From: Xanthocytophaga flava
GTDB lineage: Bacteria; Bacteroidota; Bacteroidia; Cytophagales; 172606-1
Assembly (NCBI GenBank): GCA_030068525.1
Contig: JASJOS010000032.1
Coordinates: forward strand, 1 to 43,929
DNA: 43,929 nucleotides
Direction: 5' to 3'
The position numbers and the translations under genes are program-made. This document shows, piece after piece, positions 8,234-27,581 of this stretch. Under the pieces are notes generated by a model. That model had not been told where the DNA came from, did no database searches, and saw nothing but the letters and a program-made list of their open reading frames with translations. Within the stretch, counting starts at the first letter, position 1. Each line of letters starts with the position of its first letter.

Positions 8234-8241
8234 TGTTTTTT

Positions 8242-8351
8242 GTTAATTTATCTTTACCAGAATGGTCAGGATGTAGCACTGTTTCCGGGTGGTCAGGAAG
8301 TTGCTGGAAGTTCTATGAGCCTGTTCTCTCCCTTCCTCTATATAAATTAAC
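8242..8351 (-). ncRNA. SAM-I (S-box) riboswitch, copy A
   Basis: Read on the minus strand this 110-base segment matches the SAM-I architecture. P1 is a perfect 10-bp helix, GTTAATTTAT (8351-8342) with ATAAATTAAC (8251-8242). After the AGAG of the J1/2 side comes P2 (GGAAG with CTTCC), followed by the hallmark AGCAAC. P3 is TTCC with GGAA. The hallmark GTGCTA-N2-TCCTGACC is followed by P4 (ACCA with TGGT) and AAAGAT before P1 closes. SAM-I riboswitches normally reduce expression of methionine or sulfur genes when S-adenosylmethionine is plentiful. Its promoter is at 8387-8417. Only a 45-codon frame follows, so the regulated gene is missing or unrecognised. Confidence 0.85.
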
Positions 8352-8386
8352 TAATTAATTGGTGGTGCTTAATTAGTAAGATGATA

Positions 8387-8417
8387 CAAATGTAGAGACT
8401 AATTTTTGATTTCCAAA
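8387..8417 (-). promoter_or_regulatory. Promoter of riboswitch copy A
   Basis: On the minus strand TTTG (8417-8414) and TACATTTG (8394-8387) are separated by exactly 19 bases, the Bacteroidetes consensus arrangement. Transcription would run leftward through a CTAATTAA/TTAATTAG hairpin into the S-box. Confidence 0.8.
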
Positions 8418-8445
8418 TTATATCTCTACTTTTTCTGTAGAGATT

Positions 8446-9110
8446 GAGAAAAAACTTTTTGATGTAAAAAGGAAGTGTTTTTAATAGGATATATAAGTGA
8501 AAATAGATAATGCTTAGTTTGTGTTATTTTGTAATTATTTGATTGTCAATTGTTTTACGAGCATTGTATACTTTTAGTGTAGATGATTTCTAGTGGAATA
8601 CATACTTGTAAAAAAGTAGTATATTATATATATCCTTATTAAATTATTGTATCTCTATAAAAAAAGTAGAGAATTGTTTGGATTTGTTTCTAGCGGCTTT
8701 AACTTTGTATCACAAATTTGTTAATCGTCAACTACTATCAGCTAGTAATGACTATAGATCAAATGTATGAAAAATAGCCATACAGCGCTTCCAATGACTT
8801 GTTGATCCATTCTTAGAGAGATTTTATCTCTCCGACAAGTAATATACACGAAAAAAATATCGGGCTTCTTCTTACACTATTTGAAGTATTTTCTGCTCAT
8901 CAGGAGATGCTGCATATAGTTGTTGGGTTTGTATTGACTATAGAATCAGTTCGATTCAAAAAACAACAGAATTACTTTCGCTGAAAAGGAGAGGTTATAT
9001 ACTTAAAAAACAACATCTTATGGAGTCTATTTACAGTGATACCTAGAAATGATACTTACAATACTTTAAAGAGATCGTGCTCTCATTAAAGAAATATATT
9101 ATACAAAATT
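8446..9110 (+). other. Gene-free region with promoter and long untranslated leader of the first susC
   Basis: No coding frame is supported here. A consensus promoter at 8677-8707 would start a transcript near 8714, leaving about 536 bases of leader before the ATG at 9250. Inside it are a nested hairpin at 8797-8840 (ACTTGT/ACAAGT outside GAGAGAT/ATCTCTC) and, further down, the multi-stem element at 9111-9218. Confidence 0.6.
8677..8707 (+). promoter_or_regulatory. Promoter of the susC-susD-doxX operon
   Basis: TTTG (8677-8680), 19 bases, then TAACTTTG (8700-8707) is a full Bacteroidetes sigma-ABfr type promoter. It is the nearest good promoter upstream of the susC gene at 9250 on this strand. 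Confidence 0.75.
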
Positions 9111-9218
9111 TCCCATGATACAAAGAAACTGGTAAGACGCGAATCTTACCAGCCTGAGCGAAGATCAGTATCGTAACGCCAATCACTCACTGATCCTCTA
9201 TTGGTTTTGGTCATGGGA
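9111..9218 (+). ncRNA. Candidate structured leader RNA upstream of susC
   Basis: Three helices nest into a closed junction. An outer 8-bp helix pairs TCCCATGA (9111-9118) with TCATGGGA (9211-9218). Inside it are a 9-bp hairpin CTGGTAAGA/TCTTACCAG (9129-9152) with loop CGCGAA, and a 7-bp hairpin GATCAGT/ACTGATC (9163-9195) with a 19-base loop. All stems are perfect. The element ends 31 bases before the susC ATG. I do not recognise it as a TPP, cobalamin, FMN or SAM riboswitch. It could be a cis-regulatory RNA for the transporter operon. Confidence 0.5.
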
Positions 9219-9249
9219 TACCCCTTAACCTTATAAACCGCTTAAAGAT

Positions 9250-12200
9250 ATGAAAACTTTTACAAGTAGTTTTCTGTGCGAAAAGCTATTTTCTAAAATT
9301 ACACCCTCTCTTTTTATTGTCACCTTGCTAGGTGCCAATACTCTTCATGCCGAACCTAGTAGATCTGGCTCTTCTTTTTCTGTGAAAGCTTCTGCTTCTC
9401 AAGCAGTTCCTATTGAAGGAAAGGTTACCGATGAAAAGGGCAACGGCCTTCCAGGTATCACCATCCTTGTTAAGGGTACCACCAGTGGTACAACTACTGA
9501 TGCAGATGGTAAGTTTGCGCTTGCTGTGCCAGATGAGAATGCTGTGCTGGTTCTCTCATATATTGGTTACAAAACAAAAGAGGTATCTGTAGGCAAGCAG
9601 AAAAGCTTATCTATTGCGTTGGAACCTGATACCAAACAACTCAGTGAAATTGTCATTGTGGGATATGGCACACAGGAACGTAAAAATCTGATTGGCTCTG
9701 TAACCAAGGTAAACCCGGCCGAAACTAAGAGTATCCCCACGGGTAGTTTTGATGCCCAGTTGCAGGGACAAGCTGCTGGTTTGCAGATTAACTCCAACAC
9801 AGGCGTGCCTGGCGATGGAATCTTTATACGAGTACGGGGTACTACTTCCATTAATGCAGGCAACGATCCGTTGTATGTGGTGGATGGAGTATTTATAAAC
9901 AATACTAGTTTGCAAACGGTTAATACCGGGGGTAGAGCTACTTCGCCTATTGCCGATATCAACCCTGCAGACATTGAAAGTATTGAAGTTTTGAAAGACG
10001 CCTCTGCTACTGCCATTTATGGATCTCGTGGGGCTAATGGTGTTGTAATTGTAACAACCAAACGCGGGAATTACAATGCAAAGCCACAATTGAACTTCAA
10101 CCACTCACAGGGTTGGGCCTGGGCTCCTGAAAACAGATTATGGAAACTGACTACAGGTCCTCAGCATGCCGAACTGATCAATGAATACTGGATTAATTCA
10201 GGTATCGATAATCCTGCACTAAAGCAAACATATGAAAATCGTCCTTTCCGGCCTAAGTCAGAAGGTGGACGAGGTTTGCCAGAAGAACAAAACACCTACG
10301 ACCGACTACATGAACTTTTCCGTACAGGACGTGTAGCAAACTATGATCTGTCTTTAAACGGAGGTTCGAAAGCCACAAAATATTATATAGGAGGTGGTTA
10401 TACCCGCCAGGAAGCGAACATTAAACCCATCTATTTTGAAAGAGCCAGTTTTAAAGTAAATCTGGATCAGCAGATCAATGATAAAGTCCAGATTGGAGTG
10501 AGCAATACCCTTTCACGTTCATTCCGGAATCAGGCACGTGCAGGAGATGGTCCTCAGGGTGGATTGCTTCAATCGGCATTACATACCCCTACATATCTGC
10601 CTGAATACAACGAAGATGGCACACCTGCCAGATGGGCTGGATTTGATAACCTGAAAGTATTGCTGGATAATTATGATGTAAATACTGTCAGCTTACGTTA
10701 CATTGGCAATTTGTATGCAGATATAGAACTTCTGCCTGGACTAAAGTTGCACAGCAGCTTTGGTATTGACTATAATCACTATGATGAGTCTGAATACTGG
10801 AACGACAAAACACAGTTGGGAGCTTCTCCAACCAATGGTCTGGCTACTTCGTCCCTGACACAAAACAGTACGTGGCTTAATGAGCAAACTCTTTCCTACC
10901 GGAAATCCTTTGGTACACACCATACCTTTGGAGCCCTTATCGGAAATTCACTGCAAAGCAATGTGCAAAACAATACGGCCGCTCAGGGTAGCGGCTTTCC
11001 AAGCAACTCGTATAAACAGATTTCTTCAGCTTCTACACGTACTTCATCACAAAGCTGGACAAAAAGTACACTGGCCTCTTTCTTTGGGCGGGTAGATTAC
11101 AACTATGCCAGTAAATACTTTATCGAATTGAGTATACGTGCTGACGGTTCTTCCCGTTTTGGGGTCAATAACCGTTGGGGGTATTTCCCTGCAATTGGAG
11201 CAGCTTGGAGAATCAAAGAAGAAAGTTTCCTGAAGGATATTGAGTTTATCAGCGATCTGAAATTGCGTGGGAGCTATGGCATTACTGGTAACCAAAACGG
11301 CATAAGCAACTTTGCTGCAAGAGGCCTATGGTCAGGAGAAGGTGGGTATCCGGATAACACTACAGGTGGAGATCTGGCCGGAACTGCCCCTCAACAGTTA
11401 GGAAATCCAAACCTGAGATGGGAAAAAACACGTCAGTTCAATGCCGGTCTGGATCTGGGCTTACTGAATGGACGTATTGGAGTAGAATTCAATGTATACT
11501 CCAAGTATACAACTGATGTGTTACTGGAAGAGCCTGTTCCTGCTATTACTGGCTTTAACTCCTACTACAGTAATATCGGTGAAATCAGCAATAAGGGATA
11601 TGAACTGGCAATTACCAGTGAAAACATTCGCAAAGGAGATTTCAGCTGGAGAACTTCCTTTAATATATCCGGAAACGTAAATAAGATTGAAAAACTGCCT
11701 GTACCAATCAATATGTATAACCGTAACTGGGTACGTATGGAACAAGGACATTCTATGTATTCTTTCTGGCTTTACAAACAGGAATATGTAGATACACAAA
11801 CAGGACAAGCTGTATTTCAGGATGTAAACACGGATGGTAGTATCACCGCATCTGATCGTCAGATTATAGGAAATGCAGTACCTAAGTTTTTCGGAGGATT
11901 ATCTAATACTATTACCTACAAAGGATTTGATGCAGGAATTATCTTCTCCTATCAATATGGCAACAAGGTATTCAATCTGAACCGTTTCTTTGGTGAAGGC
12001 GGTGGAACCCGTGATGCAAACCGGGTATTGTTTGCCAGTCAGCTAAAACGCTGGCAGAAGCCGGGTGATGTAACAGATGTGCCACGTCTGACCAGTGTAG
12101 GCAATAACTATAAGCTGGAACAAAACAGCCGCTTTCTGGAAGATGGTTCGTTCCTGAAGCTTTCTACAGTTACGTTAGGATATACACTGCCGAAAGAGTT

Positions 12201-12387
12201 GACAACCCGTGTCAGAATTGAGAAACTGAGATTCTATGTAACTGGTAGTAACCTGTTTATCGTCACAAAATACACAGGTGCTGATCCGGAATCTAATGTT
12301 ACCAGTAGCCAGACTGTGCAAGGTCTCGACTTAGGAACTCCTCCTCAGCCACGTTCTATCCAGGTAGGAGTAAATGTTACGCTATAA
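9250..12387 (+). CDS. SusC/RagA-family TonB-dependent outer-membrane transporter (first pair)
   Basis: A 1045-residue outer-membrane importer driven by TonB. It has a signal peptide (about residues 1-34) and a carboxypeptidase-regulatory-like domain at about 55-125 (VPIEGKVTDEKGNGLPGI through YIGYKTKEVSVG). A plug domain at about 130-275 follows, with IVGYGTQ, PLYVVDGVF, the NPADIESIEVLKDASATAIY family signature and GANGVVIVTTKRG. The remainder is a large beta-barrel. SusC proteins form a pedal-bin complex with the SusD lipoprotein encoded next to them, which caps the barrel and captures ligand. The genes that follow (susD, doxX-like pair, sulfite dehydrogenase, sulfate exporter) suggest a sulfur-containing substrate rather than a plain glycan. 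That is inference. Transcription probably starts near 8714 behind a long structured leader. Confidence 0.95.
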   Translation: MKTFTSSFLCEKLFSKITPSLFIVTLLGANTLHAEPSRSGSSFSVKASASQAVPIEGKVTDEKGNGLPGITILVKGTTSGTTTDADGKFALAVPDENAVLVLSYIGYKTKEVSVGKQKSLSIALEPDTKQLSEIVIVGYGTQERKNLIGSVTKVNPAETKSIPTGSFDAQLQGQAAGLQINSNTGVPGDGIFIRVRGTTSINAGNDPLYVVDGVFINNTSLQTVNTGGRATSPIADINPADIESIEVLKDASATAIYGSRGANGVVIVTTKRGNYNAKPQLNFNHSQGWAWAPENRLWKLTTGPQHAELINEYWINSGIDNPALKQTYENRPFRPKSEGGRGLPEEQNTYDRLHELFRTGRVANYDLSLNGGSKATKYYIGGGYTRQEANIKPIYFERASFKVNLDQQINDKVQIGVSNTLSRSFRNQARAGDGPQGGLLQSALHTPTYLPEYNEDGTPARWAGFDNLKVLLDNYDVNTVSLRYIGNLYADIELLPGLKLHSSFGIDYNHYDESEYWNDKTQLGASPTNGLATSSLTQNSTWLNEQTLSYRKSFGTHHTFGALIGNSLQSNVQNNTAAQGSGFPSNSYKQISSASTRTSSQSWTKSTLASFFGRVDYNYASKYFIELSIRADGSSRFGVNNRWGYFPAIGAAWRIKEESFLKDIEFISDLKLRGSYGITGNQNGISNFAARGLWSGEGGYPDNTTGGDLAGTAPQQLGNPNLRWEKTRQFNAGLDLGLLNGRIGVEFNVYSKYTTDVLLEEPVPAITGFNSYYSNIGEISNKGYELAITSENIRKGDFSWRTSFNISGNVNKIEKLPVPINMYNRNWVRMEQGHSMYSFWLYKQEYVDTQTGQAVFQDVNTDGSITASDRQIIGNAVPKFFGGLSNTITYKGFDAGIIFSYQYGNKVFNLNRFFGEGGGTRDANRVLFASQLKRWQKPGDVTDVPRLTSVGNNYKLEQNSRFLEDGSFLKLSTVTLGYTLPKELTTRVRIEKLRFYVTGSNLFIVTKYTGADPESNVTSSQTVQGLDLGTPPQPRSIQVGVNVTL

Positions 12388-12420
12388 ACCTTAATTCTTG
12401 TTGCAAAACAGTAATTACCT

Positions 12421-13767
12421 ATGAAGATTAACCATACCTTTCGATATATTCTGCTCATCGCATTCTCTCTGTCATTGAATAGTTGCAAGGATTTTCTGGA
12501 TGTGCAGCCTCAAAGTTCTGTTTCAGACGATCAGACCATTGTAGATGAAACTTCTGCCAAAACTGCCACACGGGGTATGTACCGTCAACTGGCCAGTGAT
12601 AGTTATTATGGCTCACTCTTTCAATCTATTGGATACCTTTCCGGTGATAATATTGTTTGGACAGGTTCGCAATCCATTATCCAGGATTTTATTAACCATG
12701 ATGTGAAATCTGATAATGGAAACATTGCCACTGTGTGGTCCGGAATTTATGAAACCATTAACCGGGCCAATCATATTATTGCCAAAGTACCTCTTGTAAC
12801 AGACGAATCTTTTACAGAAGCAGAAAGAAATGCTTTGTTGGGAGAGGCGTATTTTGTGAGAGGTCTATGCTATTTTGATCTCGCCAGAACCTGGGGTGGT
12901 GTACAGATCGTATTAACGCCTACTGTTTCAGCTACAGATAAAAATGGTATCAAACGTAGCTCTCTTGCTGACACCTATGCACAGGTATTGGCTGACCTTA
13001 CTAAGGCAGAAACATTGCTGACCAATACTACCAACCGTTATCGGGCTACGCAAAAGACAGCCAGAGCATTACTGGCACGTTATTACCTCTACCAGGAAAA
13101 TTGGGCTCAGGCAGAAGCATATGCTGATAAAGTATTAGGGGATACCGATTACGAACTGGTAAAGCCTTATAGTGCATTTTTCAGCAACCAGGCTGTGGCT
13201 ACAAAAGAGTCTGTTTTTGAACTAGCTTATAGCTCGACCTATACCAATGGCCATCGTACCTACTGGCAGCCGCCTGCTAATGGAGGAACACGTCAATGGG
13301 CGCCGAATGCTACCTTTATCTCTTTGGTAAGTGATGAAAATGTGGGAGGAAACCGCAGTGCCCTGATTGCCAAAACCACTGCTGGACTATGGTATGGCAA
13401 TATGTATTACCGAAGTCCTGCCACAGATCCTGCATTTGTGATTCGTATTGCTGAATTATATCTAATTCGTTCAGAGGCGCGTGCCCATCAGGATAAATTA
13501 GCAGATGCATTGGATGATCTGAACGCCATTCGTGACCGGGCAGGTCTTTCGGATAGCCCTGCTCAGACACAGGAGGAAATTCTGCTGGCGATTGAGAACG
13601 AACGTCGTCTGGAGTTTGCCTTTGAACCACATCGTTGGTTTGATCTGGTACGTACCCATCGGGTCGAAGCGGTGCTGGGAGTGACTAATACCAATAAGTA
13701 TGTACTCCCTATTCCTATCACGGAAGTTACAGTAGATGAATCCCTGGAGCAGAATACAGGGTATTGA
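12421..13767 (+). CDS. SusD/RagB-family substrate-binding lipoprotein (first pair)
   Basis: A 448-residue surface lipoprotein with a lipobox ending at Cys22 (SLSLNSCKDF). The alpha-helical TPR-like SusD fold is indicated by the KTATRGMYRQLASDSYYGS start, the GEAYFVRGLCYFDLARTWGG segment near residue 145, and the C-terminal RFEF-type block (ENERRLEFAFEPHRWFDLVR) near residue 400. At 448 residues it is a short member of the family, whose usual range is about 450-600. It lies 33 bases after susC with no terminator between, and 46 bases before the DoxX-like gene, so the three share a transcript. It should bind the substrate and hand it to the SusC barrel. Confidence 0.95.
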   Translation: MKINHTFRYILLIAFSLSLNSCKDFLDVQPQSSVSDDQTIVDETSAKTATRGMYRQLASDSYYGSLFQSIGYLSGDNIVWTGSQSIIQDFINHDVKSDNGNIATVWSGIYETINRANHIIAKVPLVTDESFTEAERNALLGEAYFVRGLCYFDLARTWGGVQIVLTPTVSATDKNGIKRSSLADTYAQVLADLTKAETLLTNTTNRYRATQKTARALLARYYLYQENWAQAEAYADKVLGDTDYELVKPYSAFFSNQAVATKESVFELAYSSTYTNGHRTYWQPPANGGTRQWAPNATFISLVSDENVGGNRSALIAKTTAGLWYGNMYYRSPATDPAFVIRIAELYLIRSEARAHQDKLADALDDLNAIRDRAGLSDSPAQTQEEILLAIENERRLEFAFEPHRWFDLVRTHRVEAVLGVTNTNKYVLPIPITEVTVDESLEQNTGY

Positions 13768-13813
13768 TTCTGCCTGTTTTTATCTAATGTCAAGAATTTA
13801 AAATTGATAGATT

Positions 13814-15181
13814 ATGTCAGTCATAAACGTAACCTACCTGTCTCCTGATTTAGAGACAGACACATCCTGGACAAAAGCAGAGAAAGTTCTGTTCCGTTTC
13901 TTTTTCATTTACTTCTTTTTGCAGATAGTACCATTGGACTGGAAATTTTACAGAGACTTATTTGCTGTCAACTGGTTTGATCTGCACTATCGGGATATAT
14001 TTTATCTGTCCCGGTATACACCCCGTTTGTTTGCTGATAGTCCTAGTTTTGCGGATTGGGGTGTCATAGCTCTGGTGGCCTTGGCTGGAACGCTGGTATG
14101 GGGTTTTCTGGATACCAAACGTGAAGAGTATACTAGTTGGCAATATGCATTGCGGGTATTGTTGCGCTACCGGCTGGCAGCAGGTGTGATAGGCTACGGC
14201 TTTATCAAACTGTTTCCTTTACAATCTCCTTACCCTTCACTAAGTAATCTGAATACCTACTATGGTGATTTCACAGACTGGAAGCTGTTTTCGCTGAGTC
14301 TGGGAATTGTTCCATCTTATGAATCCTTTCTGGGAGGAGTGGAGATTCTGGCTGGGTTGTTATTGCTTAACAGAAAAACGACTACGATTGCTACACTGAT
14401 TATTTTACCATTCACAGGAAACGTCTTTATGTCCAATCTGGCATATTCAGGTGGTGAATATGTATATAGCTTCTTTCTGATTACCATTGCGTTATTTCTG
14501 TTATCGTTTGATATCAAGCGATTATTTACCCTACTCACTATTGAAAAACCAACTTTTCCCAATCGTTACCACCCTGTTTTTGAAGGCAAGTGGAAAGTCA
14601 TACGGATAGTTCTAAAGAGTGCATTCATTTTTCTGTTTGTATTTCTGTATGGATTTAAGAGTTATGCCGGATATCAGACAGGGTCATATCAGTATCCACA
14701 GAAAGCAGGTTTGTCACATGCCAGTGGTTTATACAATGTACGTACATTCCGGATCAACAGTAAAGAGCTTCCGTATTCTAAAAAAGATCCGGTTCGGTGG
14801 CAGGATGTGGTATTTGAGAAATGGGCTACTATCAGTGTTCGTCTTAACCAGCCTGTGTCCTTAGCACCTGAGAAAAGAACTGAAGAGTTGTATGAAAAGG
14901 ACGAAGATCGTCAGTATGAGCTGGCAGGAACGACTGGCAGGACATACTATAGCTATCAGCTGGATACTACTCAGCATCTGCTGTATCTCAAAAACCGCAA
15001 CAAAGACAAGCCTAATGACACGCTGATCCTTCACTATAGCAGACCTGATAGTACACAAATTATTTTGTCAGGTTTGACTCAGAGCAAGGATACACTCTAT
15101 GTAGTGCTGGACAAGATTCAGAAAAAATACCTGCTGGAAGAGGTGCAACGCCAGGGAAGACAAAAGGCTTTGAAGTTGTAA
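13814..15181 (+). CDS. DoxX-like polytopic membrane protein (paralogue 1)
   Basis: A 455-residue inner-membrane protein. Roughly seven hydrophobic segments occupy residues 20-285, followed by an extracytoplasmic C-terminal domain (about 290-455). The core RYRLAAGVIGYGFIKLFPLQ and the GGVEILAGLLLL segment fit the DoxX/DoxD pattern. In Acidianus, DoxD is a subunit of thiosulfate:quinone oxidoreductase. The C-terminal domain shares GLYNV, PYSKKDPVRWQ and LYVVLDKI with the next gene, its paralogue. Its place in an operon with susCD and next to sulfite dehydrogenase genes supports a role in sulfur-compound oxidation or quinone-linked electron transfer, but the family is broad and the function is not shown. 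No cysteines or cofactor motifs stand out. Confidence 0.75.
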   Translation: MSVINVTYLSPDLETDTSWTKAEKVLFRFFFIYFFLQIVPLDWKFYRDLFAVNWFDLHYRDIFYLSRYTPRLFADSPSFADWGVIALVALAGTLVWGFLDTKREEYTSWQYALRVLLRYRLAAGVIGYGFIKLFPLQSPYPSLSNLNTYYGDFTDWKLFSLSLGIVPSYESFLGGVEILAGLLLLNRKTTTIATLIILPFTGNVFMSNLAYSGGEYVYSFFLITIALFLLSFDIKRLFTLLTIEKPTFPNRYHPVFEGKWKVIRIVLKSAFIFLFVFLYGFKSYAGYQTGSYQYPQKAGLSHASGLYNVRTFRINSKELPYSKKDPVRWQDVVFEKWATISVRLNQPVSLAPEKRTEELYEKDEDRQYELAGTTGRTYYSYQLDTTQHLLYLKNRNKDKPNDTLILHYSRPDSTQIILSGLTQSKDTLYVVLDKIQKKYLLEEVQRQGRQKALKL

Positions 15182-15187
15182 GAGGTG

Positions 15188-15364
15188 GTCTAGATTATTA
15201 TTAAAGAAGCGAAAAGGCTAGATTTTGTAGCGAGATGAGGCCATTTTGAAGTTCGTAGCAAAAGCTACGGGCTGAAAAATGGGTGAAATCGCAGCACATG
15301 TGTTTTTAGTTCTTCAAGAACTTAATTAAAACCTGACTTTGAAGCCTTTAATAATAATCTGAGA
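15188..15364. repeat. Nested inverted-repeat element between the two doxX-like genes
   Basis: The ends are inverted repeats: AGATTATTATTAAAG at 15192-15206 and CTTTAATAATAATCT at 15346-15360, a perfect 15 bp that extends to about 19 bp with one bulge. Inside lies a second palindrome: CCATTTT (15241-15247) with AAAATGG (15276-15282), and CGTAGC/GCTACG around a four-base A loop (15254-15269). GCGA and TCGC further out may also pair, and AGTTCT/AGAACT forms a small hairpin near the right end. No coding frame is present. The layout suggests a small non-autonomous mobile element or a long intercistronic RNA hairpin. Confidence 0.6.
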
Positions 15365-15418
15365 CTATCTCCTAAACAATCCTTTGACCAATGTAGCTAC
15401 TTTAAAATACGTAAAAAC

Positions 15419-17089
15419 ATGTCTAAAACGGAAACTGTTCACGAAAATGTTGTTCTGGATACTTCTTCTCCGGCAGAGGTAAATTCGGGCTTGAATACTA
15501 TTTCCAACTGGAAGGAGTATCAAAAAATTGCTTTTCGTATTGCCTTCATCTTTTTTGTCAGCATTTCCATTCCAAACAATGCGGAGTGGTATGACCATGT
15601 GATTCATATTGACTGGACCAATCTGCATTATCGGGATCTATACGATATAGCCCGCTTTGGTTCAGGGATCAATTTCTTTGGAAACAAAATTTTTGGAAGC
15701 CAGCTCAACGGCTATGCCAACTGGGTTATCACACTACTGGTCTCAATTGGGGTAGGTGCTATCTGGACGGTGGTAGACCAATACAGAAAGCCACAGCCAA
15801 AAGAATATAATAATCTGTATTACTGGCTTCGTACCATTGTACGATACCGGGCAGGTATTGGTATCATTGGATTTGGTTTTACCAAATTGCTTCCTGTTCA
15901 GATGCCTTATCCATCTGTGGGGCTACTGAATACAAACTTTGGTGATCTTACAGCACAAAAAATCTACTGGCTTTCTATCGGGATTGTTCCCTGGTATCAG
16001 GTGTTTGCAGGGGTAGTAGAAGTGTTGGCGGGAGTATTGTTGTTTTTCAGAGGAACTACTACCTTTGGTGCTATCCTCTTATTTGGTGCATTGGGAGATA
16101 TTGTGTTTGTGAACTTTGCTTATGATGGAGGGGTGCATGTGTATAGTTCCTATTTCGTTCTTCTATCAGGCTTCTTGTTAGTTCAGGATATTCCAAGACT
16201 CTATAACCTACTGATTTTGGAGCGGCTTACTATCCCTGTCAATTATTATCCATCATTTTCTCAAAAATGGCAGAAGTATACACGGGCTGCAATAAAAGTA
16301 GGGGTATTTTATGTGTTTCTGATTTTGTTGTTCTATCTGCAATATGTAAACTTCAAATACGATCCGTATAAACAACCTTCAACCAAAGGTGTAACAGCTC
16401 TTCGCGGTTTGTACAATGTAACGGAATTTAAAGTAAATAATCAAACTATTCCATATTCTCCTCTGGACACAGTACGCTGGCAACAGGCTACTTTTGAAAA
16501 TTGGACAACGTTGACCTTCAGAGTAAATAAGCCAACAGCACTGGATTTATCCAATGGTGGAGGTGATCCCCAACGAGACATTAACCGCACGTTTGAACTG
16601 ACAGGTGTAGGTGGAGGACAACGAGCATTTCATTATTATGCAGATACGGTAGATCATGTGCTTTATCTTCAGGATAAATACAAAGCTATTCCTGATCGAC
16701 GCAATCGGGTTGCAGGGGTCGGTGGTGATGGTGGAACGGAGAAAAATCTGAATGGAGGAATAGATAAGCCATTGACAGAAGGTGCTTCAACAGAAAAAGC
16801 TTCTCTGGACCCCAACTGGATAAGTCCTGAAGCCTGGAAGCATATTGGCGATGAAGTAAAAATGATTGATCCCAAAGCTGCTTCTACTCGTAGAGATCGG
16901 GAATTTGCAACCGCAAAGAAAAACGAGAAACGCAACCGGATGATTCTTCATTACGAGACAACAGATGGGAATCGGGTAATTCTGAAAGGAATCGATCAGC
17001 ATAAAGACTCAATTTATGTGGTACTGGATAAGATAAACCGATCCTATGCCTTACCTTCCAGTACACTGGAAGCTGGAAAGTATAAGTAA
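15419..17089 (+). CDS. DoxX-like polytopic membrane protein (paralogue 2)
   Basis: A 556-residue paralogue of the preceding protein with the same order of parts: a cytoplasmic N-terminus, DWTNLHYRDLYDIARF, a DoxX-like core (RYRAGIGIIGFGFTKLLPVQ, then VEVLAGVLLFFRG), and a C-terminal extracytoplasmic domain with GLYNV, PYSPLDTVRWQ and IYVVLDKI. The main difference is a hydrophilic insertion of about 75 residues near residues 415-495. It is rich in Gly, Glu and Lys, splits the C-terminal domain and has no counterpart in paralogue 1. The two genes probably arose by tandem duplication and may form a heterodimer. A strong terminator follows at 17167-17211, which closes the susCD-doxX unit. Function inferred only from context. 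Confidence 0.75.
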   Translation: MSKTETVHENVVLDTSSPAEVNSGLNTISNWKEYQKIAFRIAFIFFVSISIPNNAEWYDHVIHIDWTNLHYRDLYDIARFGSGINFFGNKIFGSQLNGYANWVITLLVSIGVGAIWTVVDQYRKPQPKEYNNLYYWLRTIVRYRAGIGIIGFGFTKLLPVQMPYPSVGLLNTNFGDLTAQKIYWLSIGIVPWYQVFAGVVEVLAGVLLFFRGTTTFGAILLFGALGDIVFVNFAYDGGVHVYSSYFVLLSGFLLVQDIPRLYNLLILERLTIPVNYYPSFSQKWQKYTRAAIKVGVFYVFLILLFYLQYVNFKYDPYKQPSTKGVTALRGLYNVTEFKVNNQTIPYSPLDTVRWQQATFENWTTLTFRVNKPTALDLSNGGGDPQRDINRTFELTGVGGGQRAFHYYADTVDHVLYLQDKYKAIPDRRNRVAGVGGDGGTEKNLNGGIDKPLTEGASTEKASLDPNWISPEAWKHIGDEVKMIDPKAASTRRDREFATAKKNEKRNRMILHYETTDGNRVILKGIDQHKDSIYVVLDKINRSYALPSSTLEAGKYK

Positions 17090-17166
17090 TTTCAATATCC
17101 GGTAAGATACATCTTCATAGGAGGATAAATGAGGGGCTTGAATCAACGGATTTAGTCAACATACCC

Positions 17167-17211
17167 AGACTTTCTGTTTCTTCTGGAGATAGAAAGTCTA
17201 CTTTCTTTTTT
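17167..17211 (+). terminator. Terminator closing the susCD-doxX operon
   Basis: AGACTTTCT (17167-17175) pairs perfectly with AGAAAGTCT (17191-17199) and is followed by a T-rich run to 17211. The sulfite dehydrogenase genes downstream would then need read-through or their own promoter. Confidence 0.8.
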
Positions 17212-17235
17212 AGGGTTTCTTAGCAATCTGCAGTT

Positions 17236-17850
17236 GTGAGTAAGTATACATATATTGTTTTTGTAGCCTCTCTTTGTTTAGGGCTGGTGCACTGGGCATG
17301 TAGCAGACCGGGTGTACAGACAGCAGCACATACGGCTGTTAATACAGAAAGGGCCAAAGATTCAGTAATAATTGATTCGGCTTGCTGGCCGGAAAGCTTT
17401 TCTCTGGGTCATGTGGCCACCGAGGCTGAGATACAAGCATGGGATATCGATGTGCGTCCTGATGGAAAAGGCCTGCCTGCCGGATCTGGAAATTTCGTAG
17501 ATGGACAGCGATTATATGCTGCAAAATGTGCAGTCTGCCATGGAAAAACAGGCAAGGAAGGCCCAAACAATCAACTGGTTGGAGGTGCAGACGTGAAAGA
17601 AAAAACCATTGGTAACTATTGGCCTTATTCAACTACCCTGTTTGATTATATACGTCGGGCTATGCCGTTTAATCAGCCTGGTTCCTTATCAGATAAAGAA
17701 GTGTATAGTTTGACCGCTTTTTTGCTGGCTGCCAATCGGATCATTGACTCAACAACTGTAATTAATGCGGAAACATTACCCAAAATTCAAATGCCTGCTC
17801 AGAAATACTTCGTGCCTGATGACCGTAAGGGAGGAGCCGAAGTGCGATAG
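17236..17850 (+). CDS. Lipoprotein cytochrome c, SoxD/SorB-like electron acceptor
   Basis: A 204-residue exported cytochrome starting at GTG. A hydrophobic leader ends at Cys22 (LVHWACSRPG), which suggests a lipid anchor. One haem-binding CxxCH is present (Cys98-A-V-Cys101-His102). The downstream segment NYWPYSTTLFDYIRRAMPFN, with its methionine, and the GSLSDKEVYSLTAFLLAAN helix are the pattern seen in cytochrome subunits of SoxCD and related sulfite dehydrogenases. Classical SoxD has two haems and is longer, so this is a monohaem version. It lies 42 bases before the molybdenum subunit gene, and the pair should act together in the periplasm, with the cytochrome taking electrons from sulfite oxidation. 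Confidence 0.85.
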   Translation: MSKYTYIVFVASLCLGLVHWACSRPGVQTAAHTAVNTERAKDSVIIDSACWPESFSLGHVATEAEIQAWDIDVRPDGKGLPAGSGNFVDGQRLYAAKCAVCHGKTGKEGPNNQLVGGADVKEKTIGNYWPYSTTLFDYIRRAMPFNQPGSLSDKEVYSLTAFLLAANRIIDSTTVINAETLPKIQMPAQKYFVPDDRKGGAEVR

Positions 17851-17892
17851 ATTCTTATTTTCCTGGCATTAAAAACTCTATGAGTAGACCCT

Positions 17893-19149
17893 ATGGATGA
17901 CAAATCATCAGATAAATCACTATTCTCCCAAAAAATCAAACGCCGTTCGCTGCTTGGGGGAGCGGCAACAGCTGCTGTAGTGTTTGTTCAGACTGCCTTT
18001 GGAAAAACTATTCAAAAGGCCATTCCGGAATCCGTTTTTAAGCCTGAAGATGATCCTACCAAACAACTGGGGCCTTTCCCCAGCGAGCTAGGTGGACGAT
18101 CTGCTTTTGAGAAGCCTGTTCGTAAACCATCCGATATTTCGTCCCGGTCCCCATTGCAGGATTTCTATGGGACTATTACGCCCTCTGACCTTCACTTTGA
18201 AAGACATCATGCTGGTATTCCAACCATCGATCCGGGCAAACACAAACTGCTTATTCATGGTATGGTAGAGAAGCCGCTTGTCTTTACTGTAGCTGATCTG
18301 AAGCGTTTTCCTTCCCTATCACGGATTGCCTTTCTGGAATGTTCCGGAAATTTTCGTACCGGAAAAGAAGCTATGACTCCACAGGAGATCTGTGGACTAA
18401 CCAGCCAGAGTGAATGGACGGGCGTAAAGCTTTCGACATTATTCAGAGAAGTAGGTATAAAGCCGGGAGCAACCTGGTTTCTGGCCGAAGGTTCCGATGC
18501 TGCAGTAATGACACGTAGTGTTCCTGTCAAAAAAGGGTGGGATGACGCTATTATTGCCTATGCACAGAATGGAGAGGCTTTGCGACCAGAACAAGGCTAC
18601 CCCATTCGTTTATTTTTACCAGGATGGGAAGGCAATGCCAATGTAAAATGGCTACGCCGGATAGAGCTTTCAGATCAACCCTATATGACCCGGGAAGAAA
18701 CTTCCCGCTACACAGAAACAATTCGGGACGGAAAAATACGTATGTTTAGCTTTGATATGGATGCCCGTTCAATCATTACCTTTCCCTCCTATCCTCAACA
18801 TATTGAGAAAGGTTGGCTGGAGATCAGAGGGATTGCATGGTCCGGTCGGGGTAAAGTGTTATATGTAGAAGTGAGTACTGATGCCGGAAAATCCTGGCAT
18901 CGGGCAACCCTTCAGGAACCCATATTGGACAAAGCCCATACTGCCTTTCGGTATCTGTGGCAATGGAAAGGAGAGTCGACAGAGATTTTGAGTCGTGTTA
19001 CAGACGAAACTGGCTACACACAACCTACCCTGAAGCAGTTGATTGATGCCAGAGGTACAGACATGGGTGGATATCACCTGAACCCTGTGACAGCATGGGT
19101 GATCAAATCAGATGGAAGTGTGGTATTTAAACCTGAAAAGTTACGGTGA
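17893..19149 (+). CDS. Periplasmic molybdopterin sulfite dehydrogenase, SoxC/SorA-like
   Basis: A 418-residue enzyme of the sulfite oxidase family. A Tat signal carries KIKRRSLLGG (twin Arg17-Arg18), consistent with export of a folded, cofactor-loaded protein. The molybdopterin-binding domain spans about residues 95-270, with the molybdenum-ligating cysteine predicted as Cys150 in FLECSGN. The motifs GYPIRLFLPGWEGNANVKWL and the C-terminal dimerisation domain (WSGRGKVLYVEVSTDAGKSW) fit SoxC and SorA closely. It should oxidise sulfite, or a protein-bound sulfane in SoxC style, to sulfate. No soxAXYZB genes are visible in the window, which favours free sulfite. The cytochrome gene is directly upstream and the FAD enzyme gene lies 47 bases downstream. 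Confidence 0.9.
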   Translation: MDDKSSDKSLFSQKIKRRSLLGGAATAAVVFVQTAFGKTIQKAIPESVFKPEDDPTKQLGPFPSELGGRSAFEKPVRKPSDISSRSPLQDFYGTITPSDLHFERHHAGIPTIDPGKHKLLIHGMVEKPLVFTVADLKRFPSLSRIAFLECSGNFRTGKEAMTPQEICGLTSQSEWTGVKLSTLFREVGIKPGATWFLAEGSDAAVMTRSVPVKKGWDDAIIAYAQNGEALRPEQGYPIRLFLPGWEGNANVKWLRRIELSDQPYMTREETSRYTETIRDGKIRMFSFDMDARSIITFPSYPQHIEKGWLEIRGIAWSGRGKVLYVEVSTDAGKSWHRATLQEPILDKAHTAFRYLWQWKGESTEILSRVTDETGYTQPTLKQLIDARGTDMGGYHLNPVTAWVIKSDGSVVFKPEKLR

Positions 19150-19196
19150 GAAGTGAAAAAAGCTTCCAGAATAAAACGTATAGAACCCGGAAATAA

Positions 19197-20654
19197 ATGG
19201 CACATTATGAATATGATGCAGTAGTAGTAGGTTCAGGACCCAACGGGCTTGCAGCAGGGATAGCCTTGCAACAGGCAGGACTTTCAGTACTGCTGATAGA
19301 AGGACAGAAAACAATAGGAGGGGGCTTACGTACTTCGGAATTGACGCTACCAGGATTTAAACACGATGTTTGTTCGGCCATTCATCCTATGGCTGCCGGA
19401 TCGCCCTTTTTTCAAAGTCTTCCATTAACTGAGCATGGACTGGAGTATATTCAGCCACCTGTAGCAGCAGCGCATCCATTTGACGATGGAACAGCCGCTA
19501 TTCTAACTTCGTCAATCGATAAAACAGCTGAGTTATTGGGAAAGGATAGACTCCCTTATTTACGATTGATTGAACCATTGCTCAATGATTGGCCCAAGAT
19601 GGCAGCAGATGTATTAGGGCCTTTGCAATTTCCAACATATCCAATTAAAATGGCTGAGTTTGGATTGAAAGCATTGCCTTCTGCCAGTCGCCTGTCGAAC
19701 TATTTTTCTACAGAAAAAGCCAAAGGGCTATGGGCAGGTATGGCTGCCCACTCGATACAGCCACTATCTCATATGACAACTTCTGCCATTGGACTGGTTC
19801 TGATGACAGCAGGGCATTTGCATGGATGGCCTCTGCCCAAGGGTGGATCCCAATCGATTGCTAATGCACTGGCTTCGTATTTTGTTTCGCTGGGCGGTAA
19901 GATAGAAACTGGTCAGTGGATATATTCCTTGAAGCAACTCCCTTCCAGTCGGGCCATTCTTTTTGATCTGACCCCCAGACAACTACTTAAAATTGCCGGA
20001 GATCAGTTTTCTTCACTGTACCGCTGGCAACTTAACAACTATAAATATGGCATGGGAGTATTTAAAGTAGACTGGGCGTTGGATGGACCTGTTCCTTTTA
20101 AAGCGGCAGAGTGCAGGCAGGCAGGAACCCTACATCTGGGAAACACTTTTCATGAAATCGCCTTGTCTGAAAAAGAAATTTGGAGTGGCAAGCATCCGAA
20201 AGCTCCTTATGTGTTACTAGCCCAACAAAGTATTTTTGACCCTTCACGCGCACCCGAAGGAAAGCACACTCTATGGGGTTATTGCCATGTACCTCATGGC
20301 TCTACAGTAGATATGACTGATGCAATTGAGAATCAGGTTGAGCGGTTTGCCCCAGGTTTCAAAGACCGTATTCTAGCCCGGCATACTATGAATACGATAC
20401 AAATGGAATCGTACAATCCAAATTATATAGGTGGAGACATTAATGGTGGAGTGATTGATTTGACTCAATTATACACACGACCCGCTTTGCGTCTTTCTCC
20501 CTATAAAACATCAGCTAAAGGCATTTATATCTGCTCTTCTTCAACTCCTCCTGGTGGAGGAGTGCATGGCATGTGTGGATATTACGCGGCCAAAAGTGCT
20601 CTGAAAGATATCTTTAAAACACCTATTATGCCTCTAAAGCCTTTTTTGAATTAA
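19197..20654 (+). CDS. FAD-dependent oxidoreductase, phytoene-desaturase/PYROXD2-like
   Basis: A 485-residue flavoprotein. The N-terminal dinucleotide fold VVVGSGPNGLAAGIALQQAG, with the acidic end of the second strand at LLIEG (about residues 9-36), and the following GGGLRTSEL mark the amine-oxidase/phytoene-desaturase superfamily. The C-terminal STPPGGGVHGMCGYYAA block (about residue 450) is the second FAD-contact region typical of the PYROXD2-like branch. No signal peptide is seen, so it should be cytosolic. The substrate is unknown. Its position between the sulfite dehydrogenase and the sulfate exporter suggests the same physiology, but members of this branch have no established sulfur role. 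An alternative is a lipid or carotenoid-type oxidation. Confidence 0.85.
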   Translation: MAHYEYDAVVVGSGPNGLAAGIALQQAGLSVLLIEGQKTIGGGLRTSELTLPGFKHDVCSAIHPMAAGSPFFQSLPLTEHGLEYIQPPVAAAHPFDDGTAAILTSSIDKTAELLGKDRLPYLRLIEPLLNDWPKMAADVLGPLQFPTYPIKMAEFGLKALPSASRLSNYFSTEKAKGLWAGMAAHSIQPLSHMTTSAIGLVLMTAGHLHGWPLPKGGSQSIANALASYFVSLGGKIETGQWIYSLKQLPSSRAILFDLTPRQLLKIAGDQFSSLYRWQLNNYKYGMGVFKVDWALDGPVPFKAAECRQAGTLHLGNTFHEIALSEKEIWSGKHPKAPYVLLAQQSIFDPSRAPEGKHTLWGYCHVPHGSTVDMTDAIENQVERFAPGFKDRILARHTMNTIQMESYNPNYIGGDINGGVIDLTQLYTRPALRLSPYKTSAKGIYICSSSTPPGGGVHGMCGYYAAKSALKDIFKTPIMPLKPFLN

Positions 20655-20688
20655 AATACATTTATAAAAATATAGCAACCTGATTTCG

Positions 20689-21966
20689 ATGTCTCAAGTT
20701 ACTCAAACTCTTCCTGAAAAAACACGATTTACCTTTACCGAAGACTGGACGGTAGTCGTACTTGGTATAAGCATTATTGCTTTGGCGTTGGCAGGATTGC
20801 CTTTGCCTGTTCCTGCCTATTCCTGGAGCAACGGGCAGGAGTTGTTTTCTAAAGTTCTTACCTCTGCCAACCTGCTTACAATTGTTATACAATTTGTACT
20901 GGTAATTGCTGTTGCAGTTCTTGGTGCTGTATTACTTAATAAGCCCTTGAAATCTTTGCTGGTGGTGTTTCCTGTAGTGTATGGAATCACTGTTCTGGCT
21001 TTGATTATTGCGGGAAACAGTCAGGTTAAGGCATGGAATCTGGAAGCGGTTATTTTTAGTCTTACACTGGGGCTTTTGATCGGTAATATTGTTACATTAC
21101 CTGAGTGGTTTCGTTCAGCCTTAGGCGCAGAAATGTTTGTGAAAATTGGACTGGTATTGTTGGGGACTAGTGTTGTCTTCTCTGATATCTTGAAAGCTGG
21201 TGCATTGGGATTGGTTCAGGCATTGGTAGTTGTTGTATCTGTCTGGTATTTTGCTTATTGGCTATGTAAAAAGCTGAAGATAGATGACGAAATGAGTCTG
21301 ATGATATCCAGTGCAGTTTCTATTTGCGGAGTTTCTGCTGCAATTGCTACTGCAGGAGCAATCAAAGGTGATACACGGAAACTTTCTTATGTCATTTCGC
21401 TGGTACTGGTGACTGCCATTCCAATGATGGTTGGCATGCCTTACCTAGCAAATTACTTGGGACTATCACAGGAAGTAACAGGAGCCTGGCTTGGAGGAAG
21501 TATTGATACAACTGGCGCTGTAGTAGCATCTGGTACGCTGGTAGGAGAAACAGCCTTAAAAATAAGTACTATCGTCAAATTCTCTCAAAATGTGTTGCTG
21601 GGAATTGCTGCCTTTGCCATAAGTATATACTGGACATATACTCAGAAAAACACCGAAGAAGCACGTTCTGAAAAACCTACCCTTGCCGTGATCTGGGAAC
21701 GGTTTCCTAAGTTTGTATTAGGCTTTGTAGGGGCTTCTCTGGTATTCTCTTTTTTATTAAGTCCAGCTGCAGTTAGTAGTGTAAAAGATGGCCTAAAGAA
21801 TATTCAAACTTTATGGTTCGTGCTTGCTTTTACCAGCATTGGATTAGAAACCCGTTTTTCAGACCTGATCAATGCCAGCAACCGCAAGCCTTTGTATGCT
21901 TTCCTGACTGCTCAGACATTTAACATTATAGTTACCTTATTGATTGCTTATTTGCTGTTTCGTTAG
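20689..21966 (+). CDS. YeiH/UPF0324-family membrane protein, putative sulfate exporter
   Basis: A 425-residue integral membrane protein with about ten hydrophobic segments. It matches the YeiH/Cons_hypoth698 family through LTLGLLIGN near residue 125, KIGLVLLGTSVVFSDILKAG, the central SAVSICGVSAAIATAGAIKG signature and LGGSIDTTGAVVASGTLVGE. The family is annotated as putative sulfate exporters because homologues are linked to sulfur-compound catabolism such as taurine or sulfoacetate breakdown; direct transport data are scarce. Here it is the last gene of the sulfur module, 34 bases after the FAD enzyme gene, where export of sulfate or sulfite made by the dehydrogenase would make sense. No obvious terminator follows. 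Confidence 0.85.
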   Translation: MSQVTQTLPEKTRFTFTEDWTVVVLGISIIALALAGLPLPVPAYSWSNGQELFSKVLTSANLLTIVIQFVLVIAVAVLGAVLLNKPLKSLLVVFPVVYGITVLALIIAGNSQVKAWNLEAVIFSLTLGLLIGNIVTLPEWFRSALGAEMFVKIGLVLLGTSVVFSDILKAGALGLVQALVVVVSVWYFAYWLCKKLKIDDEMSLMISSAVSICGVSAAIATAGAIKGDTRKLSYVISLVLVTAIPMMVGMPYLANYLGLSQEVTGAWLGGSIDTTGAVVASGTLVGETALKISTIVKFSQNVLLGIAAFAISIYWTYTQKNTEEARSEKPTLAVIWERFPKFVLGFVGASLVFSFLLSPAAVSSVKDGLKNIQTLWFVLAFTSIGLETRFSDLINASNRKPLYAFLTAQTFNIIVTLLIAYLLFR

Positions 21967-22683
21967 ATTTAGTGAATGTAGATTTAATAAATAATTTCTT
22001 CTTGTCCCTCTTAAAAATAGTCTAAAATAGAGTTATACCTGTTTGTGAAAAAAATATAGCTATCCAGCAGACCTGTGGAATCCCCTAAAGATCCTTCTGG
22101 AAAGAAAAATTATATATAGCTCATTGTTGATTGCGCATAGTTTGTTCAAGTAGTCTGTTGAGCATAACTATGTGCATACAGCATGTCACATTGGCTGGCT
22201 TGTTGTCGCGAATAAAAAAGTTTTTGTCTGGAGTTCACTGCAAAATTCCCACGTGCTGAACAAACCGCAATATCTCGTCCTAAAATAAGTTTACAAAGAT
22301 ACAACTTTCGTGTACCCATATGGAGATGTATCTCCCGATTAAGCCTAACCTACTGAAGTCCCGTCATTCTTTCCTGTGAAGCTGTTTTACTTGCCAATAA
22401 GGCCAGAAATAGGCTTTGCGAATGATACCAGCTATTAAACAAATCTATCCCAATGTGCTACTTCCGGGATTTTTATTAGAAATCAATTGCTGTTAAAGAA
22501 AATACATAGTTTATTGTATGAATGCAGGCTGATCAGATATAAGATAACTGAATCTATATGCTCAACGATTCTGCAGGATGCCAACAAAATAATTGATAGT
22601 TTAACCTAATTGTTTCTCTAGAGAGGTTAAAAGATCTGTTACCTATAAAAATGAAATGATTATAGAATTTTGATCAAAAAAAA
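21967..22683. other. 717-base gap with one long hairpin
   Basis: No supported coding frame. The main structure is GCGCATAGTT (22133-22142) pairing with AACTATGTGC (22166-22175), 10 bp with one mismatch, with TCAA/TTGA able to pair inside. It has no T-tract, so it is not a standard terminator. I found no consensus promoter for the following lipoprotein gene. Confidence 0.4.
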
Positions 22684-26067: not shown

Positions 26068-26394
26068 TTTACTCTGTTGGCTCCTCTGTTTTTAGTGTTA
26101 TGTCTTATTCTGTTGAAACATTCTCAGAGAGTTATGTAGCTATTTTATATCAGGCTCAACCACCTCCTGTCAAAGATTGTATTCTCAAACCAATGAATGC
26201 AGGAGGTGGTACCGATATTGCTTTCGCTTTGTTACAATGAAAAGTCTATGTTGTTACTCCTGTCTTTTCTCCTTATCCTAAACAGTTCTATTCTCCCACA
26301 GTTAGATAATTGTAATTAGATATATGAGAAATAATTTCCTTATTCTATTACTTGTTGGTTACTTTCGCGGAATTACTCACATGTTTGCAGCTTG
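26068..26394. other. 327-base gap with a strong hairpin
   Basis: A perfect 11-bp stem, ACCACCTCCTG (26159-26169) with CAGGAGGTGGT (26200-26210), encloses a 30-base loop. No T-run follows, so it is not a clear intrinsic terminator. The -7-like box of rpn copy 2 (TACTTTCG near 26359) lies near the end of the gap. Confidence 0.5.
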
Positions 26395-27210
26395 ATGAAA
26401 AGTAAAAAAGAAGGGAACCAGTACGATAAGATATTTAAGGAGAATTTAGAGTCTGTTACTCTGGTACTGATTGAGAAAGTGCTTCACATACAGGTGGCAT
26501 CTTATGAACGCCTTCCACAGGAACTACAACGCACAGTAGAAAGAAGGCCTGACCAACTGCTGAAAATTACCGACAAGCAAGGGTATACCTTCTTGTTGCA
26601 ACTCGAGTTTCAATTGGTAGATGAAGCTACTATGGTATATCGGATGTTGGAATACAGAGGTATGCTCTCCCGAAAATATGAACTGCCTGTTAAACAGTAT
26701 GTAATCTTTCTTTCCGATCAGCAACCCAAGATGCAGACTCGTATCGAAGAGCCAGATCTGTCCTATGCATTTCGGTTAGTTCAGTTTTCTACCATTGACT
26801 ATAAGTTGTTTCTCTCTTCTGAAAAAGGAGATGAGGTCGTATTTGCTATATTGGGTAAGTTTGGCGATACCCATCCGGAAGAGGCAGTTGCTCTTATTGT
26901 AGAACGCATAAACCAGACTTCGACAAGCAAAAGTGAACTGCAACGTCACTTGCAACAATTACGTATATTAGCTAACTTGCGTAAACTAACACCTTTTATA
27001 GAAATCATGATTGACTCGATTACTCCATACATCAAAAAAGACGATGATTTCCTTTTTAGAGAAGGAAAACAAGAAGGAAAGCTGGAAGGAAAGCGAGAAG
27101 CCATTCTAAAATTGCTGAAGGACGGAGTATTGACCACTCCGCAACTGGCTTCTTATTTTGATGTGACAGAAGAATTTGTAGAAGAGTTGCGGAAGACTCA
27201 CACTAAGTAA
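26395..27210 (+). CDS. Rpn-family recombination-promoting nuclease (copy 2)
   Basis: A 271-residue near-duplicate of the protein at 6983-7786, about 92% identical by hand count. The nuclease residues Asp53, Glu71 and Gln73 are kept. Differences cluster at surface positions and in the linker, where this copy has one additional EGK unit (GKQEGKLEGKREA). Nucleotide identity is high through the gene and resumes in the terminator, while upstream flanks diverge quickly apart from the promoter box. Both copies keep full-length frames, so both may be active. Together they bound about 19.4 kb in direct orientation. ATG 26395 is preferred to the TTG immediately before it. Confidence 0.9.
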   Translation: MKSKKEGNQYDKIFKENLESVTLVLIEKVLHIQVASYERLPQELQRTVERRPDQLLKITDKQGYTFLLQLEFQLVDEATMVYRMLEYRGMLSRKYELPVKQYVIFLSDQQPKMQTRIEEPDLSYAFRLVQFSTIDYKLFLSSEKGDEVVFAILGKFGDTHPEEAVALIVERINQTSTSKSELQRHLQQLRILANLRKLTPFIEIMIDSITPYIKKDDDFLFREGKQEGKLEGKREAILKLLKDGVLTTPQLASYFDVTEEFVEELRKTHTK

Positions 27211-27240
27211 GCCGTTTCTTATACTCGAAAAGATATTATG

Positions 27241-27268
27241 GGTCTGGATATTGGTTCAGACCTTTTTT
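27241..27268 (+). terminator. Terminator of rpn copy 2
   Basis: GGTCTGGA (27241-27248) pairs with TTCAGACC (27255-27262) and is followed by six T. The stem equals that of copy 1 and only the loop differs. Confidence 0.85.
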
Positions 27269-27399
27269 ATTTATAGTATATGACATAGCAATATACTTCT
27301 TAAACTCTATCAGAGATGTATTCTTTGGCTATTCTCTTTAAGTCTAAAAGCTGAAAAATAGATAAAAACATAATCTCTACAGAAAAAGTAGAGATATAA

Positions 27400-27430
27400 T
27401 TTGGAAATCAAAAATTAGTCTCTACATTTG
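27400..27430 (+). promoter_or_regulatory. Promoter of riboswitch copy B
   Basis: TTTG (27400-27403), 19 bases, TACATTTG (27423-27430). It is identical in layout to copy A, with transcription predicted to start near 27437. Confidence 0.8.
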
Positions 27431-27465
27431 CATCATCTTACTAATTAAGCACCACCGATTAATTA

Positions 27466-27575
27466 GTTAATTTATACAGAGGAAGGGAGAGAACAGGCTC
27501 GCAGAACTTCCAGCAACTTTCTGACCACCCGGAAACAGTGCTACGTCCTGACCTTATTGGTAAAGATAAATTAAC
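27466..27575 (+). ncRNA. SAM-I (S-box) riboswitch, copy B
   Basis: A full SAM-I aptamer. P1 is a perfect 10-bp helix (GTTAATTTAT 27466-27475 with ATAAATTAAC 27566-27575). AGAG leads into P2 (GGAAG 27481-27485 with CTTCC 27507-27511, and inner GAG/CTC), followed by AGCAAC. P3 is followed by GTGCTA-N2-TCCTGACC and a short P4 (ACC/GGT), then AAAGAT before P1 closes. P4 reads ACCA/TGGT in copy A and changes in P3 keep or improve pairing, so the structure is maintained. A separate hairpin CTAATTAA/TTAATTAG overlaps the first P1 base and could compete with it. Downstream are a 41-codon frame at 27582 and, 355 bases further, the YceI gene; neither is a classic S-box target. Confidence 0.87.
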
Positions 27576-27581
27576 AAGACG

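Follow-up and report, generated by a model that had tools for sequence, protein, structure and literature searches.

What does a riboswitch control when no gene of its pathway appears to follow it? This question is raised by two S-adenosylmethionine (SAM)-sensing riboswitches of the SAM-I class (S-boxes) in a 43,929-nt contig of Xanthocytophaga flava (GenBank JASJOS010000032.1, assembly GCA_030068525.1), hereafter the window, which denotes the whole stretch of DNA analysed. The two riboswitch cassettes, here called L and R, stand as an inverted repeat, and a preliminary description made from the sequence alone had taken both for orphans. Our analysis suggested a different answer for R. The SAM-I riboswitch probably gates a leader peptide that senses cysteine, the two together acting as a two-input attenuator, with R a probable two-part leader of this kind and L an extra copy. 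On balance, we also lean towards a wider reading, in which SAM-I riboswitches of several Bacteroidota lineages license a cysteine-sensing (perhaps also methionine-sensing) leader, genes that use up cysteine or inorganic sulfur being gated in this manner and MetH being left under a plain riboswitch.

Two riboswitch cassettes and the leader behind R

A cmscan search of the window at the gathering threshold returned two matches in total, both to RF00162: R at 27469-27572 (+) and L at 8245-8348 (-), each with a covariance-model score of 66.8 bits (cutoff 44.4) over model positions 1-108. The proposed inverted repeat was borne out as well, its arms (8240-8445 and 27577-27372) aligning over 206 columns with 95.1% identity. 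The sequence directly shows the promoter, a CTAATTAA hairpin and a P1 stem of 10 bp. The predicted R promoter, TTTG-N19-TACATTTG (27400-27430, +), follows the Bacteroidota promoter consensus and has its mirror image in L (8394-8387 and upstream, -); the 5' hairpin of R, P0 (CTAATTAA...TTAATTAG, 27441-27466, +), adjoins P1. The claim that P3 and P4 stay paired in both copies stood when the pairs were checked by eye, with the reservation that cmscan marked more non-standard pairs in L. Identity between the arms ends sharply, as had been described, just past the 3' strand of P1; over the following 150 nt, 90 of 136 aligned sites are not shared by the two copies. Both cassettes are complete, and the regulatory unit is present twice, between unrelated flanks. 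Misjoins can arise from short inverted repeats, and the window is one whole contig of a 63-contig assembly, but an assembly artefact is scarcely conceivable and was rejected, since the pair recurs in a congener, with its order kept and a spacing of 13.6 kb, and the flanks of the arms are unrelated.

The statement that no sulfur gene follows either cassette overlooked a 41-codon open reading frame (ORF) directly behind R (27582-27707, +), whose ATG lies 10 nt past P1 and whose product ends in EDSECC before the stop codon. After a further 223 nt comes the first large gene, coding for a YceI-like protein (27931-28563, +; PF04264), and domain searches identified a TPR protein, an unknown protein and a DUF1684 protein behind it (28743-32191, +). 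A SusC-like/SusD-like pair (32352-37108, +) closes the presumed R operon, in which co-transcription is inferred. The region 27207-37774 aligns with the congener at 95%, and the reading frame of the leader is kept there, although a 3-nt deletion leaves one Cys; outside the Cys codons, the two leaders differ by five synonymous and seven non-synonymous changes. R is probably a two-part 5' leader consisting of a SAM-I riboswitch and a short ORF with Cys codons at its end, followed by the YceI/SusCD series. Because R is followed by a leader ORF and further genes, the orphan or decoy reading was rejected for it; the term orphan still fits L, whose gene is not evident. For R, the claim stands on where the ORF lies, on how the parts are arranged and on the two Cys residues at the end of the leader, and the general claim stands on other families.

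Cysteine-rich leaders behind Bacteroidota S-boxes

Of 105 S-box rows listed in 59 genomes (the window genome and 58 relatives), 101 were extracted and examined. A leader ORF was defined by a length of 6-80 aa and a start codon 4-18 nt past P1, and was termed Cys-rich when at least two of its last 10 residues were Cys. Such a short ORF followed P1 in 63 of the 101 S-boxes, and 40 of these 63 were Cys-rich at the end, including the L copy of the window and two weak cases from genome G050. Cys accounted for 48.6% of the last 10 residues of these 40 leaders, compared with 1.6% of their remaining residues, and was the last residue in 27. The start codon lay at +8 to +12 after P1 in 38 of the 40 and at 8-15 nt in all of them. 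TGT and TGC were mixed in 29 of the 33 leaders with at least three Cys codons, which argues that the Cys run is not a simple or slipped repeat. Leaders typically ended in MCCCCCCC-stop or CCCCC-stop in this set, and in MCMCCCMR-stop in the metY set described below. Between the leaders of G010 and G029, two synonymous and 19 non-synonymous changes had accumulated with the Cys run unchanged. Met was also more frequent near the Cys run (7-10% vs. 1.2-1.6%; 40 leaders from each set, those of the metY set being drawn from its 43).

A second set, with named organisms, was obtained by scanning for relatives of metY, and 80 loci of 587 confirmed were kept. RF00162 was detected in the upstream DNA examined at 62 of the 80 loci, with 18 giving no S-box match; a short ORF followed in 51 of the 62, and 43 of these 51 were Cys-rich. 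Two loci affect these counts: L139, with only 67 nt upstream of metY, is not countable either way, and L122 was entered with a spurious 10-aa ORF, while a 47-aa Cys leader is present there. The metY loci with a Cys leader include Hymenobacter, Pedobacter, Mucilaginibacter, Pontibacter, Thermonema and Splendidivirga, together with metagenome-assembled genomes labelled Lewinella and Haliscomenobacter. As a control, 2271 short ORFs (20-70 aa) were taken from all six frames of the metY loci; 42 had at least four Cys among the last 10 residues, and 40 of those 42 lay upstream of metY on the metY strand. Scanning the genome for stop codons preceded by three Cys codons was too unspecific to be of use (63 matches vs. 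30 for the reversed pattern). A short Cys-ending ORF behind an S-box is a widespread arrangement in Bacteroidota, to which R would belong.

Target genes

Targets of the first set were assigned by motifs within 1.5 kb of the S-box, and eight examples were checked against NCBIfam. Cys leaders were found in none of 32 metH and none of three metX S-boxes, but in 19 of 30 metY, four of four cysH, four of four RimK-like ATP-grasp and two of three cysteine desulfurase S-boxes; the counts were two of two for amino-acid permeases, three of three for SusC-type genes and one of three for MetB/MetZ-like genes. The difference between metH and the rest had a Fisher p of 1.4e-9, uncorrected for relatedness. 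When ORFs of 100 aa or more were considered, MetH came first in 28 of the 32 metH S-boxes, with another ORF preceding it in four. No target was assigned to 17 of the 101 S-boxes, five of them with a Cys leader; these 17 include both window copies, a metX-like case in G052 that has no short ORF, and G023:C519, which on checking proved to be SusC-type with a Cys leader. The plain riboswitch goes with methionine synthase, and the riboswitch with a Cys leader goes with sulfide fixation, sulfate reduction, cysteine splitting and uptake. The RimK-like ATP-grasp genes behind an S-box and a Cys leader occur in G018, G035, G050 and G051, and the match of the ATP-grasp protein to the RimK family, at 75 bits, does not reach the cutoff of 143.

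Proposed mechanism and alternatives

From the aptamers, the position of the ORF, its Cys run, the bias of target genes and the recurrence of the arrangement, all of them directly observed, we infer SAM gating, ribosome stalling, a part for Rho and the direction of the cysteine response. With SAM bound, P1 would be stable and initiation on the leader ORF blocked; the untranslated leader would be open to termination, probably by Rho, and the genes would be off. With SAM low and cysteine plentiful, the ribosome would finish the leader and leave, exposing the RNA again. With SAM low and Cys-tRNA scarce, it would stall on the terminal Cys codons and shield the RNA, allowing transcription to reach the genes, which would thus be on when SAM and cysteine are both low. 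With the start codon 8-12 nt past it, P1 falls inside the footprint of an initiating ribosome, so that translation of the leader is expected to be blocked when SAM binds.

Several results weigh against this reading. Across 38 loci, the gap between leader and gene measured 94-444 nt (median 177), and terminator-like hairpins of at most -10 kcal/mol were present in 18% of these gaps compared with 8% of shuffles, an excess that speaks only weakly for intrinsic terminators as the general output. In structure predictions for 35 loci, the pairing of Cys codons, whether with the target start or with the region downstream, did not exceed that in shuffles, and the target start was more open than in shuffles (0.61 vs. 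0.56, p 0.002); neither classical attenuation nor masking of the start is therefore supported, and masking was rejected. On the supporting side, the gap is rich in C and poor in G (C/G 1.54, compared with 1.01 upstream, 1.14 in targets and 1.20 after leaderless S-boxes), a weak sign of Rho. Since terminators are weak, target starts open and gaps C-rich, and since Rho is encoded, Rho-dependent termination would be the favoured effector. The extension of P1 into the leader start was clear in some loci only, with a mean of 3.3 pairs against 1.8 when the loci were mixed.

The distribution of the leaders also counts against the reading at several points. The R leader has two terminal Cys and its congeneric counterpart one; only one of seven metY leaders in the window's own family (G004) ends Cys-rich; and three of four Algoriphagus leaders in the metY set are not Cys-rich. 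In the first set, 11 of 30 metY S-boxes were scored as lacking a Cys leader, among them G047:C60, where an ORF with a Cys-rich end is present and its ATG overlaps P1. Moreover, a Cys/Met-rich leader (...MCMCCMYMCM) precedes metY at L155 with no S-box match, and the Cys leader lies about 60 nt from the S-box at L126 and several hundred nt from it at L134, L146, L178 and L182. These distant or S-box-free leaders indicate that coupling to the S-box is not obligatory. The leader at L155 may stand alone, and those at L134, L146, L178 and L182 lie close to metY, suggesting another order of the two sensors.

Three other explanations of the leader were weighed. Plain control by the SAM riboswitch, with the short ORFs incidental, would agree with the strength of the S-boxes and with the metH-linked S-boxes that have no Cys leader, but it is highly improbable given that the roughly 30-fold Cys enrichment is limited to the last 10 codons, that the starts fall in a narrow range, that the codons are mixed and that the targets are biased. 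Cys-rich peptides can bind metals, and since both Cys and Met are enriched in the leaders, the peptides might act in trans instead of through stalling, for instance as ligands of metal or of thiol-reactive compounds. This we regard as very unlikely, since the rest of the peptide is variable, as the comparison of G010 with G029 showed, and the Cys run stands mostly at the end of the ORF.

It is also conceivable, though unlikely, that the leader senses cysteine and acts on translation of the target, a stalled ribosome opening its start, rather than on transcription. Translation attenuation of cysteine biosynthetic genes is described for Mycobacterium smegmatis in PMC13236596; against such control here are the predicted openness of the target starts, their lack of excess pairing with Cys codons and the length of the gaps. 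We prefer the riboswitch-gated leader acting on transcription. With regard to P0, a 5' hairpin of at most -5 kcal/mol was found in 28 of 40 S-boxes with a Cys leader, seven of 22 with other short ORFs and 10 of 38 without an ORF, a threshold count for which the control consists of mean shuffled energies only. The 3' strand of this hairpin could in some loci also pair with the leader start region. A role of P0 in freeing the leader start by capturing one side of P1 was considered; it is attractive for some metY loci and for the family to which the window belongs, and was discarded as a general mechanism.

Relation to known systems

Poly-Cys leader ORFs of mycobacteria were reportedly termed leaderless by Canestrari in 2020. 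The systems closest to ours are compared below. Short ORFs with Cys runs near the stop codon precede cys genes in Actinobacteria and lack conserved terminator hairpins; Rho has been suggested for these leaders too (Seliverstov 2005; PMC1262725). They resemble the present leaders in the Cys run near the stop, the sulfur genes behind it and the lack of clear terminators; the present leaders belong to another phylum and have a SAM-I aptamer 8-15 nt before the start codon (40 leaders), whereas the excerpt of PMC1262725 makes no mention of a riboswitch. For SAM-I riboswitches (RF00162), the outputs described in PMC2258182 are of several kinds, among them transcription terminators and a ribosome-binding site that is part of P1 on its 3' side. 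By comparison, the start codon near P1 belongs here to a short, mostly Cys-ending ORF rather than to the target gene. In the ppe2 leader of Mycobacterium tuberculosis, a B12 riboswitch is combined with a short upstream ORF on whose translation the downstream gene depends (PMC11260477); in that case, regulation involves a close overlap of stop and start codon, a role of Rho was discounted and the excerpt does not mention cysteine, in contrast with the gaps of 94-444 nt found here. Sinorhizobium metA has a SAM-II riboswitch with an early AUG and a later start (PMC9373788), and differs in the riboswitch class, in the in-frame second AUG and in the terminator between the two, with no leader peptide of regulatory codons mentioned in the excerpt.

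Among the open-licence PMC matches listed, no report was found of a SAM-I riboswitch with a Cys leader, nor of Cys leaders in Bacteroidota. The SAM-I riboswitch, the Actinobacterial poly-Cys leader and the riboswitch with an upstream ORF are each known singly, and their combination is new among the literature matches listed, as far as the portions seen of those papers go. If our reading is correct, a natural two-input regulator, a metabolite riboswitch in series with an amino-acid attenuator, recurs in an important phylum. It would give dozens of small ORFs a testable function, account for some Bacteroidota S-boxes that do not abut genes, and provide a ready engineering part for Bacteroidota. 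The window would then hold one probably live leader and one gene-less copy around a sulfite-oxidation island.

The L cassette

Behind L, P1 is followed by a 45-codon ORF (8096-8233, -) that ends in SCGIVDCKPF, where two Cys lie close to the end without forming it; in the congener, only 15 codons of this ORF are open. Beyond the ORF lies a convergent gene. The region downstream of L differs between the two species at 41 of 149 sites, compared with 12 of 147 downstream of R, and the ORF is decaying. The locus before L in the congener comprises a two-component regulator, SusCD and GH43, but L cannot be taken to drive these genes, because the 99% orthologue of that SusC in the window genome lies on C22, a contig without an S-box match. 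L is best read as an extra cassette copy without an evident gene in both genomes. The preliminary description had also offered a decoy or a SAM-responsive small RNA. The decoy is contradicted for R by its leader ORF and genes; for L either is conceivable, although no positive evidence emerged.

Alternatively, L might produce a working small or antisense RNA that responds to SAM and targets the convergent gene 6935-7786. It would explain why the aptamer and an operator-like site are intact in two species, the L aptamers differing at three of 104 sites, as few as the R aptamers do, a degree of preservation that homogenisation of the arms does not fully explain. The drift of the region downstream of L, and the finding that only the 3' end of gene 6935-7786 aligns beside L in the congener, nevertheless make it unlikely. 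As for homogenisation, the promoter halves of the arms differ at two and one sites between paralogues within a genome and at five and three between orthologues, whereas the L and R aptamers of the window genome differ at eight sites, compared with three for L vs. L and three for R vs. R. Full homogenisation is at odds with the larger distance between aptamer paralogues; to judge from the sequences, the promoter half looks as if converted, and partial homogenisation, limited to that half, may add to the sharp end of identity. A pair of direct gene copies (6935-7786 and 26392-27210; 85% over 922 nt) lies beside the cassettes, one at each, and gave no match in Pfam and NCBIfam searches. Only 3' remnants of the duplicated gene align in the stretches of the congener compared.

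The island between the arms and other S-boxes of the genome

Between the arms lies an island (9250-21966, +) that codes for SusC, SusD, two proteins without a Pfam match, cytochrome c, a sulfite dehydrogenase, an FAD oxidoreductase and a YeiH-like protein. The dehydrogenase is SoxC-type (17893-19149, +; TIGR04555, 477 bits, cutoff 420), which is likewise at odds with the supposed absence of sulfur genes. The YeiH-like protein (Cons_hypoth698) scored 94 bits with TIGR00698, below the cutoff of 232.6. The inverted pair and much of the island are conserved in the congener.

An operator-like inverted-repeat site, TCTACAGAAAAAGTAGAGA, lies just upstream of the -33 box of R (27376-27394, +), and L has its counterpart (8423-8441, -). 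A further such site, with a TTTG-N19-TAACTTTG promoter (8654-8707, +), precedes the SusC and sulfite dehydrogenase genes, divergent from L. The palindrome TCTAYANAAAAAGTAGANA was found at 8423-8441 (-), 8654-8672 (+), 27376-27394 (+) and G000:C7:160183-160201. Exact copies numbered four in the genome (L, R, the SusC promoter and the C7:160279 S-box); the congener likewise has four, and none was found in the other six family genomes searched. Allowing at most one mismatch gave five matches, compared with four for the reversed-pattern control. Since the pattern was drawn from these very sites and the control is nearly equal, a possible operator for a candidate regulator common to the four promoters is a suggestion only.

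The search for further cassettes that had been proposed revealed five SAM-I riboswitches in the 9.49-Mb genome, on C7, C11 and C25. The C7:160279 S-box, which is 89% identical to the window cassette over 156 nt, has MLKTTYYPTCGRMCCY-stop in the position of the leader ORF, followed by cysteine desulfurase. The C11 S-box precedes metY, and that at C7:35299 precedes a 348-aa ORF, with a MetH motif about 1.2 kb away.

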